This document shows positions 33,062 through 39,762 of a stretch of 64,000 nt of DNA, piece after piece. The DNA comes from Phycisphaerae bacterium. Lineage in GTDB: Bacteria > Planctomycetota > Phycisphaerae > UBA1845. Below the pieces are notes generated by a model. It had not been told where the DNA came from. It did not search any database and saw only the letters and a program-made list of their open reading frames with translations. The position numbers were made by a program, and so were the translations under genes. The stretch lies in NCBI GenBank assembly GCA_029260235.1, contig JAJDDP010000014.1, positions 1 through 64,000 of the forward strand, given 5' to 3'. The stretch's first letter is position 1, and each line of letters opens with the position of its first letter.

Positions 33062-34072
33062 ATGATGCACAGCGGTACGATCATGGTTGGGTACGATCCA
33101 CAATTGCGACTGCAGGACAAGGGGCTATCCCTCCTAGCCTGGGCGATCGGGGTCAGCCTCCTAGTCACGGTGGGCTGGATGGTCCTTGAGCCGCTCGATC
33201 CTCACGGGGCAGTGACAATTGGCGGCACTCAAACCGCAGCGATCTTGGTTCTTGCTGAGATGCTCGCCCTCTCGGTCATCGTGTCAGCCCTTGCGACTGG
33301 CTTGATCGGGAAGAAGCTGCCGGACGCGGGGGTATTTGCCGTAGCACTTGGGCTTGCTGCTTGCAGTCTGCGCGGCGCTACTGCAGAGCATCTGCTTATC
33401 AGCATCACCGGCGCAGATGCGTCAGCCAGAAGCAGCCTGGCCTGGAAGCTTGCCTTTGAAGGCTGCGTCTGGTTCTCGGTCATCGCAGCCGCTATGTTCA
33501 CCAGCGGCGTAACCATCCGCTGGCTGGGCAAGAGTCGCAGCGACGCTGATGACCTGGACTGGGGTTCGTTTTCACTAGCCGAAGCCTCGATCTTTCTGCC
33601 TTGGCTTGGGCCGGCCCCGGACGACAGTGAGGATCGCGAATGGGTTGACGGGCTGAAGGTGACAGCCGTCTCGCTCTTCGCCGCAGCCATCTTGTTCCGT
33701 GTCCTTGCCGCTGGCTTGCCTTGGAGCAGCATCACCCACGGGCAGACCTATTTTGCCCTCATCGCAGCCTCGTATCTGGGGACGTCCTTTGCTTATCGCT
33801 CTTGGCAGGTTCGCTCTGCACTCTGGGGCTGCCTTGCTCCACCGCTGCTCTGCCTTGGTGGCTTTGTGTACAGCGCCTTGGCTTCGTCATCGCAGGGGCC
33901 TTACAGCGATCTAGCCAACATTCCACCCAGCACGTTCTACCGGGCGCTCCCCATCCAATACGTGAGCGTCGGCACTGCAGCTGCCGTCGCATCTTTCTGG
34001 GCGGCCCGAAGACGCTGGGCAATGAACAGTTTGGTTGCCGACAGCGGACCAAGAAAACAAGCCCGGGTGTAA
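33062..34072 (+). CDS. Hypothetical polytopic membrane protein
   Basis: Multiple hydrophobic segments in one uninterrupted ORF. Confidence 0.65.
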   Translation: MMHSGTIMVGYDPQLRLQDKGLSLLAWAIGVSLLVTVGWMVLEPLDPHGAVTIGGTQTAAILVLAEMLALSVIVSALATGLIGKKLPDAGVFAVALGLAACSLRGATAEHLLISITGADASARSSLAWKLAFEGCVWFSVIAAAMFTSGVTIRWLGKSRSDADDLDWGSFSLAEASIFLPWLGPAPDDSEDREWVDGLKVTAVSLFAAAILFRVLAAGLPWSSITHGQTYFALIAASYLGTSFAYRSWQVRSALWGCLAPPLLCLGGFVYSALASSSQGPYSDLANIPPSTFYRALPIQYVSVGTAAAVASFWAARRRWAMNSLVADSGPRKQARV

Positions 34073-34286: not shown

Positions 34287-35789
34287 ATGCTCCGCTTTCT
34301 TGTTTTCTCCAACGGCGCCCCCGCCAAAAGTGTTGATCTGTCTGGTGCATACCTCGTCGGCAGTGACGGGGTACCAATGCGCGCTGAGCTTGAGTTCCGC
34401 GACGGCATGCTCACCTGCACCAAACGCGCAACCGGACCGGCTGGCTTGGCGATTTCATGGCCCATCCCGGGAGTCGGGCAACTTCTCCTGGAGACCACCC
34501 GCCTTCAGGAGCGAGAGAAGCCCTACGTTCTCCAGCTGGAATTGGCCCGAAACCGGCTGATGCGCCTTTCGCACAAGCAGGAAGATTGGGAACTAGACGA
34601 CCCCCGCTCGCTGGAAAAGCTGAGCGGCAATGTGGTCAAGTCCAGGGACTTGCTGGTCAAAGCCCTGCAGGCTGACACCGACGCCCAGGCCGCTCAACTG
34701 GGCGAAGAATCACTGGCGCTGGCGGTTCGCGTGGGTGAACAACTAAGCCTCCAACATGCCGAAGACGCCCTGCTAAGGAAGCGGGCTGAGAACGGATTTG
34801 CCCGCCGCCTGCTGGGCTGCACCGTCGATTTGAGCAATCAATCCGAAGCCTACCGACGCCACCTGGTCGAAGCCTTCGACTTTGTGGTCATCCCTTTTGT
34901 TTGGCGGGACATTGAACCGTCAGAGCAACAATTCGATTGGAAGCTGTTGGATGGCTGGGTCGATTGGTTTGCCAAACATCGCATCCCCATGAAGGGGACC
35001 GATCTGGTCAACTTCGTCGAGAAGAACGTACCTGACTGGCTCTACATTTGGGAACACGATTTCGAGACCATCCGCGATCTGATTTACGAGCATGTTCGCC
35101 GGGTCCTCCAACGCTATGGCAAGCACATCCAGGTCTGGGATGTGGTCAACGGTATCCACGGCGTCAATTGCATCAGCTTCAATTTCGAACAGCTGATGGA
35201 ACTAACCCGCATGTCAGCCGCCCTGACCAAGAAGTTGTTGCCCAAGTCGTTGACTATTGTCGATTTGGCTGCACCGTGGGGTGAGTATTACGCCCGCAAC
35301 CAGCGGACCATTCCCCCTATGCTCTACGCCGACATGATCATCCAGAGCGGCATTCCCTTCGACGCGTTTGGTCTGCAATGCTACTTCGGGATGAGCATGG
35401 ACGGGATGTATGTGCGCGATCTGTTCCAGATTTCCTCGATGCTTGATCGCTTCGCCCAGCGAGGCAGGCCCATCCATGTGACCGGTGCCCAAGTGCCCTC
35501 TGCGGTGACCACAGACAAGAGCGATGCCTGGGGTGGAGCTGTTTCCATCCGCGACGGCGGGTCTTGGTGGGGCGACTGGAATGAGGAACTTCAGTCGAAG
35601 TGGTTGCGGGGGTTCTACGAGATTGCCCTGTCCAAAATCATGGTCGACACGGTCACCTGGCGGAACCTCTCCGACGCAGGGAACAGCTTCCTGCCGCATG
35701 GAGGCTTGCTGCATGCCGACATGTCCCCAAAGCCCGCCTTCAAGCAGCTAAAAGAAGTCCGCAAAGCAGTTCTAGCCAATGGCAACTGA
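34287..35789 (+). CDS. GH10 (endo-beta-xylanase)-fold protein with an N-terminal extension; catalytic Glu residues apparently absent
   Basis: FVVIPFVWRDIEPSEQQFDWKLLDGWVDWF, VWDVVNGIHG, FGLQCYF, RPIHVTGAQVPS align to GH10 landmarks. Confidence 0.8.
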   Translation: MLRFLVFSNGAPAKSVDLSGAYLVGSDGVPMRAELEFRDGMLTCTKRATGPAGLAISWPIPGVGQLLLETTRLQEREKPYVLQLELARNRLMRLSHKQEDWELDDPRSLEKLSGNVVKSRDLLVKALQADTDAQAAQLGEESLALAVRVGEQLSLQHAEDALLRKRAENGFARRLLGCTVDLSNQSEAYRRHLVEAFDFVVIPFVWRDIEPSEQQFDWKLLDGWVDWFAKHRIPMKGTDLVNFVEKNVPDWLYIWEHDFETIRDLIYEHVRRVLQRYGKHIQVWDVVNGIHGVNCISFNFEQLMELTRMSAALTKKLLPKSLTIVDLAAPWGEYYARNQRTIPPMLYADMIIQSGIPFDAFGLQCYFGMSMDGMYVRDLFQISSMLDRFAQRGRPIHVTGAQVPSAVTTDKSDAWGGAVSIRDGGSWWGDWNEELQSKWLRGFYEIALSKIMVDTVTWRNLSDAGNSFLPHGGLLHADMSPKPAFKQLKEVRKAVLANGN

Positions 35790-36210
35790 CCCTTCATCGG
35801 GTCAAGCCGCAACTGCATCATCACAGCCAGCATCCGCACACCCCGGCGCCGCTTCGACGATGGCGGCACTCTTTGTACCCCTGTTCTGCTTAGGTGTGTA
35901 TAACCTGACCACGACCGTACCTTACGCCGAAGCCACCGGCGGCGCCGCCTCGCGAAAATCAGGGCAACTGCAGATCAACCCCAATACAGCGGAGTGGTGG
36001 GAGTTGACCGTCCTGCCCGGCGTGGGTGCAGTGACCGCCAAGAAAATCGTCGCCTACCGAGACACCTGCCGGCAAGAGCAAAGCCTACCATCTGAGGCCC
36101 CGGTCTTTGAATCCGCAACAGACCTAAGACGCATCCATGGCATAGGCCCGAAGAAGGCAATAGCCATGGAACCGTTCTTGGTCTTCGAGCAACTGCCGCA
36201 GGGGAGGTGA
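35779..36210 (+). CDS. ComEA-like helix-hairpin-helix protein
   Basis: INPNTAEWWELTVLPGVGAVTAKKIVAYRD and LRRIHGIGPKKAIAMEPFL; overlaps the upstream gene by 11 nt. Confidence 0.8.
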   Translation: MATDPSSGQAATASSQPASAHPGAASTMAALFVPLFCLGVYNLTTTVPYAEATGGAASRKSGQLQINPNTAEWWELTVLPGVGAVTAKKIVAYRDTCRQEQSLPSEAPVFESATDLRRIHGIGPKKAIAMEPFLVFEQLPQGR

Positions 36211-37987: not shown

Positions 37988-39124
37988 CTATCCGCCGGCA
38001 GCTATCGCTTGAATGCGATTCAGTTTGACGTCTTGGATTTCCATCATGGCTTCCCAGTCGGGTTCGACCAGCAGCTCGGTGAAGGACTCAGCCGTCATCT
38101 TGGCCACGATGCGGTATTTTGCGATACCCTTGGTGAACTTGTAATTGACTTTCTCGATGCCAGGGGTCTTTTGCAGCTTCTTCTTGATCTTCAATGCCAT
38201 GGGCACCTTGATGCCTGACACCTCGAGTTGGATCTCTCCGCCGGCTGATATTTGAGTTGCCCACTGATTCATGCACGTTTCGTAGACCATGTCGATGATC
38301 TTGGCCCCGGCGTTGGACATGGCCATCTTGCCCGCTTGCTTGTTGGCGGTGAAGTGGCCTCGCGCTCCGCCGCGCCAGTTGGGCAGCGATTCACTGGCTA
38401 GTAGCTTGCCCGTGTCGGTGTAGAACATCTTGACCACGCAGTCGCCGTTATACATAGCCGTCCGCGTGCCGTAGAGGTTCTCGACCCCGGCTGCGTTGGC
38501 GTGGGCACTGCCGGTAACAAAAATCTGCGTGCCAAAATCCTTGGCGATCATCTGCATCTTGGCGATGTCATCTTCGACGGCTGCGTCGGCTGACTCGCGC
38601 TTGGCGATCTCCCGCACCTGGGCGCCGGAGTAGACGTCGAACCCACTCTTGAGCAGCCGTTCCTCGATCTTGGATTCCAGAATACTGCTGTCATCCAGAA
38701 CATCGTCGATGTACTCGCTGATCATGACCATCACCCCAGGTCTGCCAATCTGATCGAGCACATTCTGCACGGCGCCCCAACTGCTGGCAACGGCAGACTT
38801 GCTGACCCTGGCTTTGATCTTGCAGAAATAAGTTCCGCCGGCGCCGGGGCCTTCTTGGAGGACCTGGTAGTCGGTGACAATACCCTCAGCCTTGGAGTAA
38901 ATGGTGTCTCGAACCAGCTCGAAATTCTCCACCTGCGAGTGCGAGAAAATCTCCTGCTTGCCGCCCTGCTCGAGGGCTTTTCGCAAAGCGTCGGTCTTGG
39001 CTGAGTCGGCACTGATCCCCTCGCCGGTCACCTCGACCTCAACAATATCATCCTGAGCCAAAGCAACAGAAGCCGGCAACAGGCTCCCCAATAAAGCAAC
39101 CGAAAGCATCCAACGTGATTTCAT
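37988..39124 (-). CDS. Exported LPP20/FlgT-N-like protein
   Basis: Signal peptide MKSRWMLSVALLGSLLPASVALA; VEVTGEGISADSAKTDALRKALEQGGKQEI pattern. Confidence 0.65.
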   Translation of the reverse strand: MKSRWMLSVALLGSLLPASVALAQDDIVEVEVTGEGISADSAKTDALRKALEQGGKQEIFSHSQVENFELVRDTIYSKAEGIVTDYQVLQEGPGAGGTYFCKIKARVSKSAVASSWGAVQNVLDQIGRPGVMVMISEYIDDVLDDSSILESKIEERLLKSGFDVYSGAQVREIAKRESADAAVEDDIAKMQMIAKDFGTQIFVTGSAHANAAGVENLYGTRTAMYNGDCVVKMFYTDTGKLLASESLPNWRGGARGHFTANKQAGKMAMSNAGAKIIDMVYETCMNQWATQISAGGEIQLEVSGIKVPMALKIKKKLQKTPGIEKVNYKFTKGIAKYRIVAKMTAESFTELLVEPDWEAMMEIQDVKLNRIQAIAAGG

Positions 39125-39762
39125 GGCGTTTCTCCTCGCAAGACAGGGTAACCACATCACCCCCAGAATGATCCCATTTCAGCGTTGGACAAGCCAACAA
39201 CGCAGCCGGTTAGCGTACCGCAAAATAGATGGAGGGGAAACACGCGGAGAATGGCTGGAATTAGGGTCCTGGCAGCGAAGTGCTCTACGTGGAGAGGCCC
39301 TTCAGGTCGCCGCAATTTGACTGAGAACGGCGAGTTCCCAAGACACTGGGAGGTAGTTCGATGTCGAGGCGGGAGGCACCCCTTTTCACGCTGGGCGAGT
39401 ACGATCCTGGCGCAACTGCCGACGCTGCACCAATCGACCGGGCACGCTGAGCAGCGTCACGGGAGTGAGTTGTTGTAAGCTGCGCCTGAGTGACGGCGGC
39501 TTCCAAAAATGAGGAAAGCCCGGGTGCACTCCCGCCTCAGTGGCTAAGAACCGAAGCAGTACTATCAACCCGAGGCTTTCCTCTGGTTCTTGCCCGTCAT
39601 CGATGACGAGGGGCAATGGAGAATCATGAAGCAGGGCGATCCCCTTATGTCTTCAACGCAATCTGTGGTGGGCGCGTTCACAAAATATGAGAACAATTTG
39701 GCGCGGTGCCAGGATTGGTTCCTTGGCGCAGCTCAGTTGGTGCGACAGGCGGCCAGTGGGAG

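Follow-up and report, generated by a model that had tools for sequence, protein, structure and literature searches.

A GH10-fold protein without catalytic glutamates is near-universal in two classes of Planctomycetota

A 500-residue protein with a GH10 fold, encoded in a 64,000-nucleotide stretch of a Phycisphaerae genome (the window), is probably a core-genome pseudo-glycosidase of the Planctomycetota, in which catalysis was lost before the classes split and which is kept for a non-hydrolytic role. By computation, the protein has lost both catalytic glutamates and most of the -1 subsite on a GH10 fold, and its gene is near-universal in two classes, under selection and part of an old synteny. 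The protein likely hydrolyses no glycan and may act as a scaffold or binding protein. The finding is larger than first noted, as the gene is no isolated oddity but represents a near-universal pseudo-GH10 of two planctomycete classes.

Domain architecture and fold

The reading frame (34287-35789, forward strand) is uninterrupted from ATG to TGA over 500 residues, in agreement with an earlier reading based on the sequence alone (the sequence-only reading). Pfam PF00331 (GH10) matches residues 177-489 (E=5.2e-16, 59 bits against a 22-bit cut-off), a kinship far above chance, and among PDB sequences GH10 xylanases score best against the protein. An AlphaFold2 model of the whole protein, built from a 23-sequence alignment (pLDDT 91.6, pTM 0.91), consists of an N-terminal beta domain (residues 2-69), a three-helix bundle (82-167) and a barrel (176-496), and in a Foldseek fold search of the PDB the best 50 matches listed for this model are all either GH10 xylanases or designs derived from GH10. 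Both the profile and the (beta/alpha)8 barrel of GH10 type place the protein in the family. The main features are as follows.

34287..35789, + strand: GH10-fold protein without catalytic glutamates, 500 aa (open reading frame, Pfam GH10, AlphaFold2 model, PDB fold matches)
34287..34496, + strand: N-terminal beta domain, residues 1-70 (model secondary structure; without PDB fold match)
34497..34802, + strand: conserved hairpin and three-helix bundle, residues 71-172 (model, conservation; E85 and R88 invariant)
34803..35774, + strand: GH10 (beta/alpha)8 barrel, residues 173-496 (Pfam, model, PDB fold matches)

The protein shares with the GH10 endo-beta-1,4-xylanases (PF00331; PDB 8b73, 7d89, 1vbr) the barrel fold, similarity over residues 177-489 and the structural residues, of which W206, P249, W251, W284, Q436, D463, G473 and K482 are kept, while it lacks both glutamates, most of the -1 subsite, a signal sequence and xylan-related neighbours and possesses an additional N-terminal beta domain and three-helix bundle. 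The N-terminal extension, which the sequence-only reading did not recognise, is a real conserved region composed of the beta domain and three helices. Modelled separately, the N-terminal 172 residues reach a pLDDT of 91.7 with no significant fold match in the PDB (best E 0.034) and nothing in Pfam or NCBIfam. The lack of a recognisable signal sequence suggests a cytosolic location. Beta domain, helix bundle and GH10 barrel together would form a vertically inherited protein.

Loss of the catalytic glutamates and the -1 subsite

The proposal that both catalytic glutamates are replaced by glycine holds for this protein, with a GGT codon at each of residues 289 (within VWDVVNG) and 400 (within IHVTGAQVPS) and the GH10 fold established by Pfam and the model. 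In the AlphaFold2 model, Gly289 directly follows strand beta-4 (283-288) and Gly400 lies inside strand beta-7 (396-402), predicted placements that are as expected for the GH10 acid/base and nucleophile. The replaced positions are listed below.

35151..35153, + strand: Gly289 at the acid/base Glu position (codon GGT; family alignment)
35484..35486, + strand: Gly400 at the nucleophile Glu position (codon GGT; family alignment)
34998..35000, + strand: Thr238 at a -1 subsite His position (family alignment; GH10 subsite list, PMC6163442)
35010..35012, + strand: Asn242 at a -1 subsite Trp position (family alignment; GH10 subsite list, PMC6163442)
35382..35384, + strand: Tyr366 at the -1 subsite His position after beta-6 (family alignment; PMC6163442)
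35661..35663, + strand: Arg459 at the Trp position after beta-8 (family alignment; PMC6163442)

Conservation at these positions was assessed in an alignment of 160 distinct members (158 after removal of L139 and L097, see below) against 17 mostly secreted GH10 proteins from the same phylum. At the acid/base position, all 17 enzymes carry Glu and none of the 158 members carries Glu or Asp; the 92 Phycisphaerae sequences have Gly (83), Ala (5) or Ser (4), and the 66 sequences of the second class have Arg (36), Ala (12), Gly (7) and others. The nucleophile position is likewise Glu in 17/17 enzymes and in a single member (1/158), with Ala (49), Gly (19), Ser (9), 11 gaps and the one Glu (L102) among the Phycisphaerae and a gap in 66/66 members of the second class. 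It is therefore the loss of the glutamates that is conserved and not the glycine itself, residue 289 being G/A/S or mostly R/A/G according to class and residue 400 being A/G/S or absent. The one exception (L102 / L115, genome G075) is the sole member of the Glu-less clade with a nucleophile-position Glu (YVSELKAP) and has Gly at the acid/base position.

The residues of the GH10 -1 subsite (His, Trp, Asn, Gln, His, Trp) are listed in PMC6163442. Both His, one Trp and the Asn are nearly always replaced in the family, as is the Trp after beta-8, and the Gln is kept in about half of the Phycisphaerae, with most second-class members having Glu instead. The 500-residue protein retains Asn288 and Gln364 and, measured as a GH10 xylanase, is without the acid/base Glu, the nucleophile Glu and most of the -1 subsite. 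With the residues that would bind the sugar lost as well, the ancestral subsites seem unlikely to serve in glycan binding.

Distribution and gene neighbourhood

The Phycisphaerae were searched with the 500-residue protein as query, and the second class and the whole phylum with a profile of 37 members (A2). Matches occur in all of the 60 nearest genomes, in 294 of 299 sampled Phycisphaerae genomes and in every high-quality genome among these (232/232). Most of the Phycisphaerae matches are full-length and far below 1e-40; weak or partial matches are found in G184, G212, G290 and G029, with G212 reaching 2.8e-43 against the family profile. The relatives that carry names are Phycisphaerae. In the second class, presumably the Planctomycetia, 281 of 297 genomes match, with weak matches in at least three (G745, G909, G911). 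The orthologue is usually single-copy, and 35 of the 37 members match PF00331. Across the whole phylum about one third of the sampled genomes match, many via ordinary GH10. No other GH10 was found in the source genome of the 500-residue protein, and a search of plasmids returned only partial matches (24-27%) to ordinary xylanases.

Several lineages depart from this pattern. In the second class, where nearly all other families have a convincing member, family f132 has one in 0/9 sampled genomes, possibly through a lineage-specific loss. In family f10 (e.g., G087:C1:75618-77228) and in L100, a single open frame gives separate matches to the N-terminal region and to the barrel, suggesting that an insertion separates these two parts or lies inside them. 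A locus titled Alphaproteobacteria (L038, JANQQE010000007.1) carries the gene with planctomycete neighbours (a divergent purC and a downstream helix-hairpin-helix gene), and the bin is probably mislabelled.

Two neighbours recur, with counts that are lower bounds as the searches used representatives of each neighbour. A divergent purC lies upstream within 3.9 kb in at least 19 of 42 Phycisphaerae loci and at least 21 of 37 loci of the second class, where the gap is always 127-508 bases; there is no purC near the gene in the window. Downstream on the same strand, at least 41 of 46 Phycisphaerae loci have a ComEA-type helix-hairpin-helix gene, against none of 38 loci in the second class; in the window, the first 11 bases of this gene overlap the end of the GH10-like gene. 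The synteny is thus old, with purC in both classes and the helix-hairpin-helix gene in the Phycisphaerae.

35779..36210, + strand: helix-hairpin-helix (ComEA-like) protein (Pfam HHH_3; conserved neighbour in Phycisphaerae)

Also in the window, a 336-aa hydrophobic, membrane-like protein without a Pfam match is encoded directly upstream on the same strand (33062-34072), and a 390-aa protein on the reverse strand (37988-39160) has a sub-threshold match to the N-terminal domain of flagellar assembly protein T.

Evolutionary history and selection

The 36 Glu-less sequences in a maximum-likelihood barrel tree group in a single clade (support 100/96) divided into the two classes. This clade joins L139, L150, L160, L149 and L097 (100/99), apart from the other GH10s, with the branching order of these basal Glu-bearing branches not settled by the barrel tree. 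The secreted Planctomycetota paralogues (e.g., L144-L148, L153-L158) belong to the same family and phylum as the 500-residue protein, but carry Glu/Glu and the -1 subsite, mostly with a signal-like start and a different N-terminal region, and fall in a separate clade. The nearest clade to the Glu-less family is instead that of the non-secreted L139, L149, L150, L160 and L097, of which L139, L149, L150 and L097 have long N-terminal regions, like that of the 500-residue protein, without an obvious signal sequence; homology of this region in L139, L149 and L150 to the N-terminal domain of the 500-residue protein is only partly supported by sequence comparison. PWGEY, a motif of the Glu-less family (see below), is present in L149 and in related forms in L139, L150, L160 and L097. 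These relatives differ from the Glu-less family in their catalytic pairs (Glu/Glu in L139, L150 and L160, Glu/Lys in L149, Gln/Glu in L097) and in retaining the -1 subsite Trp and, in part, His.

As there is one Glu-less clade beside Glu-bearing relatives, catalysis was lost before the two classes split, most simply once. The simplest history would start from a Glu-bearing cytosolic GH10 relative, with catalysis gone before the classes diverged. In L149 (G443:C116:10200-14100), the acid/base Glu is kept and Lys occupies the nucleophile position (WITKMG); its sister L150 is Glu/Glu, and L149 apparently represents a separate loss of catalysis. L097 (G428:C347) combines a Gln acid/base with a Glu nucleophile, the -1 subsite His and Trp and the full N-terminal region, and is a possible evolutionary intermediate.

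Pairs of close relatives have dN/dS ratios of 0.02-0.08, which indicates strong purifying selection. The Glu-less family is a probable pseudoenzyme, a homologue of an enzyme family that is maintained without the catalytic residues. The suggestion in the sequence-only reading of a maintained protein that is not a xylanase is supported by near-universality in two classes, purifying selection, the loss of most of the -1 subsite along with the glutamates and the lack of another GH10 in the genome.

Conserved surfaces and possible roles

Conservation of the cleft was tested by secondary-structure class with permutation. The cleft face (the C-terminal ends of the strands) has a mean conservation of 0.54 in the Phycisphaerae versus ~0.60 for the rest of the barrel, with no excess in the cleft (p 0.98 and 0.73 for a more conserved cleft), and cleft conservation was therefore rejected as a mark of a kept ligand site; a single conserved cleft ligand would be expected to raise the cleft face above the rest of the barrel. 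The barrel strands have a conservation of 0.80 in active-type enzymes and ~0.60 in the Glu-less family, which argues that the special active-site constraint is gone. Conservation within the protein peaks in the block of residues 71-104 (0.69 in one class and 0.68 in the other), which includes the invariant E85 and R88. On the cleft side, two loops, PDWLxxWxxD after beta-3 and PWGEY after beta-5, are still well conserved and, together with charged residues that recur in the second class (see below), may mark a new ligand site or chemistry.

35031..35060, + strand: PDWLYIWEHD loop after beta-3, residues 249-258 (conservation, alignment; W255 and D258 in both classes)
35274..35288, + strand: PWGEY loop after beta-5, residues 330-334 (conservation; also in Glu-bearing relatives)

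As the cleft face is not specially conserved and residues 71-104 are the most constrained, a scaffold or binding role with an N-terminal interface is favoured. In this reading the protein would be cytosolic and would bind or scaffold without hydrolysis, and its putative main contact surfaces are residues 71-104 (the N-terminal hairpin plus first helix) together with the loops after beta-3 and beta-5.

A re-purposed enzyme, with a new active site in the barrel and a small cytosolic molecule such as a nucleotide or sugar phosphate as its possible substrate, is the less likely reading that has most to recommend it, chiefly due to the recurrence of Arg289, Glu364 and Asp242 in the pocket of the second class. 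The acidic and aromatic residues conserved in the beta-3 and beta-5 loops, the old purC synteny and the tolerance of the GH10 barrel for new chemistry (designed Kemp eliminases are among the PDB matches) are consistent with such an enzyme, but the cleft face has no excess conservation and the pocket residues are unlike between the two classes. A relocated catalytic pair using the PWGEY Glu was rejected on this difference in the pocket and because that Glu is already present in Glu-bearing relatives, and so is not a new catalytic residue. A bolder and similarly doubtful extension is that the ancient barrel is a new enzyme or an essential regulator, with an N-terminal fold absent from the PDB, tied to purine synthesis through purC or to DNA handling through the helix-hairpin-helix partner. 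Transposon essentiality data exist for Planctopirus limnophila (PMC10632474), and no such gene is named in the main text of that study.

It is quite improbable that the old cleft still binds a sugar or oligosaccharide, leaving it uncut, with the protein serving as a cytosolic sensor or carrier. The GH10 barrel is intact and ligand-binding inactive glycosidase homologues exist, but both classes have exchanged most of the -1 subsite residues that hold the sugar and the cleft face is under no special constraint. A glycosidase that is still active, by an unusual mechanism or with its catalytic groups at other places in the cleft, is very improbable; the Pfam GH10 score exceeds the curated cut-off and non-standard nucleophiles exist among glycosidases, yet nearly all members have lost both carboxylates along with most of the -1 subsite. 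A decaying pseudogene or sequencing error, for which no support was found, can be dismissed given the open frame in nearly all genomes, replacements common to 158 distinct members and the low dN/dS.

Relation to known pseudo-glycosidases and implications

Pseudo-glycosidases such as Klotho (GH1) and the GH18 chitinase-like lectins have a glycosidase fold without the catalytic carboxylates and are kept for binding or scaffolding, though they belong to other GH families and are mostly eukaryotic and extracellular. Inactive glycosidase homologues are thus already a known theme, and what is unusual here is the near-universality in two classes and the unmatched N-terminal region; to our knowledge, no other pseudo-glycosidase combines a GH10 fold with near-universal core-gene status in bacterial classes. 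No description of a pseudo-GH10 family was found in the openly accessible literature. Exactly one GH10 gene has been reported in each of four Isosphaeraceae genomes (PMC5352709), and these may be the pseudo-GH10 gene described here.

Routine annotation masks the pseudo-GH10 as a 'GH10 xylanase' and makes it easy to miscount, such that CAZyme surveys of the two classes would count a xylanase in almost every genome where none exists. The relatives with Glu/Glu, Glu/Lys and Gln/Glu pairs offer a record of the stepwise loss of catalysis in a glycosidase. With its catalytic machinery removed and the protein kept nonetheless, the family appears to be conserved for another job, and a near-universal, usually single-copy gene in two major classes of Planctomycetota is a strong target for the study of their biology.
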